This document shows positions 8,522 through 10,040 of a stretch of DNA of 10,691 bases, piece by piece. The notes under the pieces were generated by a model. It worked only from the letters and a program-made list of their open reading frames with translations. It did no database searches and had not been told where the DNA came from. Origin of the DNA: Thermoproteota archaeon (GTDB lineage: Archaea; Korarchaeota; Korarchaeia; B14-G2); NCBI GenBank assembly GCA_003661385.1, contig QMWA01000044.1:1-10691 (forward strand), in the 5' to 3' direction. Numbering within the stretch: position 1 is the first letter of the stretch; every line of letters starts with the position of its first letter. Both the position numbers and the translations under genes were made by a program.

Positions 8522-9226
8522 ATGCTGGTAGACGCCCACACGCACTTCCATGAGATCCCACCAGATGAGAGAGCCAAGTACATGGGGATGTGGATCATAG
8601 CTGTAGCAGACGACCTTGAGAGCTCAGCTGAGACCCTCAAGCTAGAAGGCGAGCACCTAGTGAGGTGCGTGGGGATACACCCTTGGAGCGTAGGGGGTGC
8701 AAGCTCAGCTCACCTAGATGAGCTGGAGAAGCTAGCCTACAGGGGTGAGGTGGAGTGCATAGGTGAAGTTGGCCTAGACAGGAGGCGTAAGGGCTTCAGC
8801 AAGCAGCTCGAGTTCTTCAGGAGACAGGTGAAGCTCGCCATAGACCTCGGAGTCCCGCTGAACCTGCATGCCCTAGACGCTTGGAGGGATGTCCTGGAGG
8901 TTCTGGACCACTATGGAGCTGAGAGGGCTCTCTTCCACTGGTACTCTGGGCCCACTAGCCTCCTGCCTGAGCTTGAGGAGAGAGGCTACTTCATCTCAGT
9001 GAACCCATGTGTCGTGTTCCAGAGGAAGCACATGAAGGCGCTGGAGCAAGCAAGCTTGGAGATGCTGCTGACTGAAAGCGATGGCCCCTACGTCTACAGG
9101 GGAGTGAAGCTTGAGCCCTCGATGGTGAGAGAGAGCCTAAAGGCTATAGCCAAGGTGAAGGGCATTAGCCTAGCTGAAGCAGAGGAGCTGGTTGAAGAAA
9201 ACCTCATGAGGTACCTCAGCAGGTAG
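8522..9226 (+). CDS. TatD-type metal-dependent hydrolase
   Basis: The 234-aa protein belongs to the TatD group of the amidohydrolase superfamily: a TIM barrel with a two-metal site, known from characterised members as Mg-dependent nucleases. The ligands are all in place: VDAHTH (His6, His8), ECIGEVGLD (Glu82), NLHALDAW (His116), ALFHWYSG (His139) and LLTESDGPY (Asp187). GIHPW (52-56) is also typical. Wording differs slightly from bacterial TatD (HCFSG, ETDSPY), and the protein is about 20-30 residues shorter than the usual roughly 260. I chose the ATG at 8522 over an in-frame GTG at 8504. The family starts right at this strand, and AGGTGG (8511-8516) is five bases ahead. It begins one base after the DUF389 stop, so it is co-transcribed. 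Substrate is unknown; DNA repair or RNA turnover is possible. There is no Tat translocase context. Confidence 0.88.
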   Translation: MLVDAHTHFHEIPPDERAKYMGMWIIAVADDLESSAETLKLEGEHLVRCVGIHPWSVGGASSAHLDELEKLAYRGEVECIGEVGLDRRRKGFSKQLEFFRRQVKLAIDLGVPLNLHALDAWRDVLEVLDHYGAERALFHWYSGPTSLLPELEERGYFISVNPCVVFQRKHMKALEQASLEMLLTESDGPYVYRGVKLEPSMVRESLKAIAKVKGISLAEAEELVEENLMRYLSR

Positions 9227-9234
9227 CTTTATCA
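9227..9234 (+). promoter_or_regulatory. TATA-like box ahead of the candidate sRNA
   Basis: CTTTATCA directly follows the TatD stop codon and is centred about 26 nt before position 9257, where the candidate C/D-box RNA would begin. It is an imperfect TATA box but well placed. The RNA could also be cut from the 3' end of the TatD transcript. Confidence 0.35.
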
Positions 9235-9252
9235 GGCTGCTCAAGGCAGGCT

Positions 9253-9311
9253 AGTGGGATGAGGAGTAACCTCGAGCCTGAGTGGTGATGACCTGAGACC
9301 TCGCTGACCTA
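9253..9311 (+). ncRNA. Probable C/D-box guide sRNA (2'-O-methylation guide)
   Basis: The gap between TatD and the convergent creatininase gene has the ordered elements of an archaeal C/D-box sRNA. They are a C-like box GGGATGA (9256-9262, one mismatch to RTGATGA), a 15-nt guide, D' CTGA (9278-9281), a 3-nt spacer GTG, a perfect C' GTGATGA (9285-9291), a 12-nt guide CCTGAGACCTCG, and D CTGA (9304-9307). The size, box spacing and position between 3' ends are typical of crenarchaeal sRNAs. CTAG before and CTAAG after could form a short terminal stem with one bulge. By the N+5 rule the D guide would direct methylation of the second G of CGAGG in a target reading CGAGGTCTCAGG; the D' guide's target would read GCTCGAGGTTACTCC. 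The imperfect C box and weak terminal stem are the main doubts. The RNA 3' end may overlap the creatininase stop codon by a few bases. Confidence 0.5.
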
Positions 9312-10040
9312 AGGCAGCCCTAGCTCACCCCTCTTCATCTTCTCAACAACCTCAGCTAGCTTGCTGACGACGAGCTCGAACACCCTCTCGCCCTTCTCTC
9401 TGCTAGCAGTCTTAGCTAAACCTATCACGCCTGTCTTCGTGACCTCACCTGTCGTCTTCACCTCTGATACTGGAGCAGCCTCAGGAAGAGGGCCGTCTAC
9501 GATGAGGCTCTCGTCTACCAGCTCAGGAGCCAGGTGCATCATGAGAGAGGACTCCTCTGCTCCAGCGTGATGCCTCTCCTCCGGCTTGAAGAGACTGAGC
9601 TCAGCTGAGACATGCCACCACTCAGCTACCAGGACCGTCATGCTGAGCTCTATCCTAGCTTCTAAGGCAAGCTCCCTCAGGACAGCAGAGTTCCCTCCGT
9701 GCCCGTTTACAACTAGAAGCTTTCTAACACCCTGCTCCCATAGGCTGTAAAGCACATCTCTCAGGTAGGCTTTGAAGGCCTCAGGTGAGACATAGACTGT
9801 CCCAGGGAAGTCCTTGTGGTGAGCTGAAACCCCATATGGGACTGGAGCTAGAGCTGGAACCCCAGCTCTCTCAGCTACAGCCTCAGCTATCCTCCAGCTG
9901 GCCAAGTAGTCTGCTCCAACAGGGAGAGCAGGGCCATGCTGCTCAACTGAGCCGACTGGAAGGATCGCTACATCACACTCCTCTAAGGCATCCTCTAGCT
10001 GCCTCCAGCTCTTCTCCCACCACCTCAAGCCTTCCACCAC
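9309..10040 (-). CDS. Creatininase-family metal-dependent amidohydrolase (ArfB-like possible)
   Basis: The 243-aa protein carries the creatininase-family motifs. These are AILPVGSVEQHGPALPVGAD (25-44, with Glu33, His35 and Asp44 as metal-site residues), PYGVSAHHKDFPGTVYVS (68-85), VVNGHGGNS (110-118, His114), and RHHAGAEESSLM (156-167) with a conserved-type Glu. The family includes creatinine amidohydrolase, the mycofactocin peptidase MftE and the archaeal formamide hydrolase ArfB. ArfB acts in riboflavin and F420 precursor synthesis; in an archaeon it or an unassigned amidohydrolase is likelier than true creatininase. No riboflavin or F420 gene is nearby, so the choice stays open. The GTG start at 10040 is followed at once by a second GTG (10037); the TATA box lies 21-24 nt upstream of them, so either may be used. 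It converges on TatD and diverges from a small membrane protein gene. Confidence 0.85.
   Translation of the reverse strand: MVEGLRWWEKSWRQLEDALEECDVAILPVGSVEQHGPALPVGADYLASWRIAEAVAERAGVPALAPVPYGVSAHHKDFPGTVYVSPEAFKAYLRDVLYSLWEQGVRKLLVVNGHGGNSAVLRELALEARIELSMTVLVAEWWHVSAELSLFKPEERHHAGAEESSLMMHLAPELVDESLIVDGPLPEAAPVSEVKTTGEVTKTGVIGLAKTASREKGERVFELVVSKLAEVVEKMKRGELGLP

Follow-up and report, generated by a model that had tools for sequence, protein, structure and literature searches.

A probable C/D box small RNA gene between convergent genes of an uncultivated archaeon, with candidate targets at the root of 23S rRNA domain IV

We analysed a stretch of 10,691 nucleotides (the window; contig QMWA01000044.1) from an archaeal MAG of 1.74 Mb in 206 contigs, whose 23S rRNA scored 2719 bits against the archaeal model. 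The 82-bp gap between two convergent genes in this window (9227-9308) is filled by what is very probably an archaeal C/D box sRNA gene, judging from its ordered motifs (Table 1). The boxes C, D', C' and D (RUGAUGA / CUGA) are present in that order, three of the four perfect, while box C departs from consensus at position 5 only. Placing box C at 9259 gives guides of 12 and 12 nt and a total of about 54 nt, within the 10-12 nt and 50-70 nt of archaeal C/D sRNAs, and the motif ACCTCG is common to both candidate guides (the D' guide as first noted and the D guide). By inspection, the features of a k-turn are present, with G9261-A9262 for the sheared G-A pairs, U9260 and G9264-C9304, and with the U-U pair turned to G-U. 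The possible terminal stem is weak because it consists of two G-C pairs only; the spacer folds no better than shuffled sequences (z = 0.60), and we found no stable hairpin in competition. A first-pass annotation had read this gap as a C/D box sRNA, a reading supported by the architecture, by Rfam matches, by the presence of fibrillarin and Nop5 and by other flawless sRNAs in the genome. The boxes D', C' and D, the 3-nt spacer and the 12-nt guide that it named all lie where it had placed them, as do the 82-bp gap and the TATA-like box upstream.

Table 1. Features of the candidate sRNA locus (window coordinates) and of the sister sRNAs (contig coordinates).
Feature	Position	Strand	Basis or remark
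TatD-related DNase gene, upstream neighbour	8522..9226	+	PF01026, E = 3.1e-49
CTTTATCA, weak TATA-like box	9227..9234	+	box C about 30 nt downstream; sequence only, putative promoter
Minimal sRNA (candidate), ~54 nt	9256..9309	+	short terminal stem possible: G9256-G9257 with C9308-C9309
Box C, ATGAGGA (RUGAUGA, U5 to G)	9259..9265	+	Rfam model alignments and 12-nt guide spacing
D' guide GTAACCTCGAGC, 12 nt	9266..9277	+	best own-rRNA site is 23S CTCGGGGTTA
Box D', CTGA	9278..9281	+	sequence
k-loop spacer GTG, 3 nt	9282..9284	+	3 nt also in the C20 and C53 sRNAs
Box C', GTGATGA, consensus without mismatch	9285..9291	+	sequence
D guide CCTGAGACCTCG, 12 nt	9292..9303	+	under the published rule, 23S CGAGGTCCCAG is its best site in own rRNA
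Box D, CTGA	9304..9307	+	sequence
Creatininase family gene, convergent neighbour	9309..10040	-	PF02633, E = 2.1e-68
C53 sRNA, flawless	C53:6580-6611	-	locus L056; D guide GTTTGCCGATTA
C20 sRNA, flawless	C20:4469-4525	+	23S gene about 900 nt upstream (loci L021, L055, L127)
C143, likely C/D sRNA	C143:2255-2284	-	TTGA D box, CTGATGA C' box; L059

Box C can be read in two ways with one mismatch each: as GGGATGA at 9256-9262, which leaves a 15-nt D' guide, or as ATGAGGA, 3 nt downstream, which leaves one of 12 nt. Since L7Ae needs the box C uridine and guides are 10-12 nt long (PMC7994747), box C is better read as ATGAGGA, a placement that retains this uridine, makes both guides 12 nt and matches the alignment of the Rfam archaeal C/D models. 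The sR28 model aligned without a gap over 55 positions with box C at ATGAGGA, and the sR17 consensus has A at the mismatched position of the candidate. The first-pass annotation had chosen GGGATGA, a sequence that is indeed present, and had cautioned that the element might be degenerate or single-guide. With ATGAGGA as box C, the D' guide would be GTAACCTCGAGC, of the same length as the D guide, so the single-guide label is unwarranted and the sRNA appears less degenerate than feared.

The candidate shares its strand with the TatD gene, whose stop lies about 30 nt to its 5' side, while the stop codon of the creatininase family gene (9309-9311) begins 1 nt past box D. Most C/D sRNA genes in archaea overlap or adjoin gene ends, with which the position of the candidate agrees, and a TATA-like motif is found at only about 20% of them (PMC7994747). 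Its transcript may start from the weak TATA-like box CTTTATCA or may arise by read-through from TatD; an sRNA cut out of such a longer transcript could do without the TATA-like box.

The host genome encodes the protein machinery and further sRNAs of this class. Genes for fibrillarin (E = 1.8e-94) and Nop5 (Nop domain; E = 2.2e-62) are neighbours on contig C3. A crude motif scan over roughly a quarter of the genome gave no L7Ae, a result that carries no weight either way. Contigs C20 and C53 each carry a flawless C/D sRNA and C143 a weaker one; these sister sRNAs have 3-nt or 2-nt D'-C' spacers, and the C' box GTGATGA is common to C20, C53 and the candidate. The D guide of the C53 sRNA (GTTTGCCGATTA) matches the host's own 23S at 1836-1848 near-perfectly, a pairing that served as the positive control for the target scan and that corresponds to about E. 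coli 1672. The best D' site of the same sRNA is 23S 2133-2140, again across the closing helix of domain IV, of which it forms the 3' strand in the RF02540 structure. The D guide of the C20 sRNA (AGATCTTGAGTA) pairs with a tRNA (L083, C28:214-310), and no clear target was found for the likely sRNA on C143. Many host tRNA genes are 95-113 nt long (L064, L066, L073, L076, L078-L081, L083), which suggests introns. The 16S gene is split over two contig ends (C126:6-609, minus strand, and C20:1-400, plus strand), with nt ~605-1110 missing from the assembly, and an Rfam SSU search of the genome missed both pieces.

Chance is a poor source of this arrangement. Of 400 first-order random sequences of 21.4 kb (equal to both strands of the window) with the window's base-to-base frequencies, not one had the architecture with one C-box mismatch. 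When at most two mismatches were permitted over all boxes together, 411 kb of the host genome yielded four C/D structures and the reversed controls of the same 411 kb none; two of the four came from loci picked for matching a C/D pattern, so the count of four is biased and the zero in the controls is not. An Rfam search of the window placed its best matches exactly at the candidate (spanning 9255-9310), and all of these were archaeal C/D families, led by sR28 (E = 5.6e-4) and snoPyro_CD (E = 0.008). The matches are significant by E-value yet under the gathering scores, and the candidate has neither the gathering score (27.6 bits against 39) nor the shared guides that mark members of sR28 (RF01136). 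At the DNA level, 60 genomes searched with the spacer gave chance-level matches only, and three distant loci found in relatives through the neighbouring TatD gene lacked a C/D structure in the sequence examined. These Rfam scores, the mismatch in box C and the lack of conservation found in the 60 genomes count in favour of the boxes being a chance arrangement in a short spacer or the remnant of a decayed sRNA; we consider this very unlikely, given the empty reversed and random controls, the canonical form of three boxes and both guide lengths, and the machinery and sister sRNAs in the genome. Slighter still is the probability that the spacer serves the convergent genes as no more than a terminator or untranslated region, since that reading, though suited to a spacer between two gene ends, sits badly with folding no better than that of shuffles and leaves four ordered C/D boxes unexplained.

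Taking the candidate as a C/D box sRNA, we searched for its targets under a published rule of at most one mismatch, at most two G-U pairs and a Watson-Crick pair at nucleotide 5; the usual cut-off is nine straight Watson-Crick pairs (Dennis et al. 2015, PMC4644070). Perfect complements of either guide, which the first-pass annotation had proposed looking for in rRNA and tRNA, were absent from the host's own available rRNA (16S nt ~605-1110 missing), and the search instead gave imperfect best sites of 10 pairs each in the 23S. For the D' guide this site was 1813-1822 (L021:2351-2360; CTCGGGGTTA), with one G-U among its 10 pairs, and for the D guide 2121-2131 (L021:2659-2669; CGAGGTCCCAG), with 10 pairs and one mismatch; both fall short of nine straight Watson-Crick pairs. 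Taken singly, the D' site had a shuffle P of about 0.07 and the D site one of 0.43, and over 54 scoring variants the former always ranked first and the latter between first and fifth. The first-pass annotation had suggested related or overlapping target sites; these two lie about 310 nt apart and do not overlap, but are near each other in secondary structure. In the structure of the RF02540 alignment, the D' site starts the helix closing domain IV and the D site forms the 3' strand of the helix just inside it. By a MAFFT alignment, the predicted methylation sites G1816 and G2125 correspond to about E. coli 1650 and about E. coli 1983, and the helices are H61 and H64. Dennis et al. 2015 (PMC4644070) list helix 61 as a methylation hotspot. 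In class relatives the sequence of the 23S D' site is different, and matches to a correspondingly changed D' guide occurred in the phylum at about the number expected by chance, none in a C/D context. Two other sets of matches to the D guide were rejected: one at 23S 308, which required four G-U pairs, and those in tRNA T-arms, which had an internal mismatch and an uncommon site of methylation. We also scanned the 16S of relatives in the sense direction and found that a hairpin in class relatives containing GAGGTTTCGG, at about E. coli 835, could pair with the D guide through at most nine Watson-Crick and two G-U pairs. This hairpin falls in the part (nt ~605-1110) that is missing from the host's own 16S, where a better target could be hidden.

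The two 23S sites taken together are more telling than either singly. They lie beside the two sites of the C53 sRNA, one in each stretch, and none of 3000 shuffled guide pairs had its top sites in both of the corresponding narrow zones; these zones were based on the C53 sites and were drawn once the matches had been seen. With a zone half-width of 30 nt the count was again 0/3000, and at 100 nt it was 12/3000. We judge the chance that the two named sites are correct to be about even. A real C/D box sRNA whose true targets lie elsewhere (in the missing middle of the 16S, in tRNA, or nowhere), with a domain IV pairing due to chance, is somewhat less probable than that. Both 23S matches are imperfect and weak singly, part of the 16S is absent, the hairpin in the relatives' 16S offers the D guide a possible partner, and about one third of known archaeal C/D sRNAs are without a clear rRNA target (PMC4644070), all of which favours targets elsewhere; against it, top sites that both fall inside the two stretches of the C53 sRNA are rare among shuffles. 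We tentatively suggest, with rather less than even confidence, that the candidate and the C53 sRNA form a pair, both bridging these two stretches of 23S at the domain IV root, where they may act as a concerted methylation and folding chaperone of the closing helix.

An RNA of 50-55 nt transcribed from the plus strand would carry the boxes ATGAGGA, CTGA, GTGATGA and CTGA, a pair of 12-nt guides and a k-loop of 3 nt. L7Ae would bind the C/D k-turn and the C'/D' k-loop, Nop5 and fibrillarin would then join the complex, and the ribose of the target opposite guide nucleotide 5 would be methylated. The D' guide on 23S 1813-1822 is predicted to place a methyl mark at G1816, in the helix closing domain IV, and the D guide on 2121-2131 one at G2125, in a nearby helix of the same domain. 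By holding both stretches, the sRNA may also aid folding of the domain IV root.

The Rfam archaeal C/D sRNAs snoPyro_CD (RF00095), sR28 (RF01136) and sR5 (RF01304) resemble the candidate in having four boxes, 12-nt guides, a 3-nt k-loop and 50-60 nt in all, whereas its guides differ and its box C reads AUGAGGA. With different guides and scores under gathering, it has no orthologue among the named Rfam families; it is otherwise an ordinary member of the known archaeal C/D class. Some double-guide C/D sRNAs have been described as bridging rRNA segments that lie far apart (Dennis et al. 2015, PMC4644070), and the predicted targets of the candidate are like theirs in lying about 310 nt apart yet near in secondary structure, although its complementarity is weaker than nine Watson-Crick pairs and its bridging is a prediction. 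A further comparison is the C53 sRNA, which is alike in architecture and whose two guides find their best sites in the 23S stretches that the candidate also matches, but which differs in its guides, its perfect boxes and its near-perfect D guide match. The candidate leaves knowledge of the C/D mechanism unchanged. For an uncultivated archaeal lineage without any guide RNA in the searched libraries it supplies a well-formed one, and it gives a concrete, testable example of possible cooperation between two sRNAs at the 23S domain IV base.
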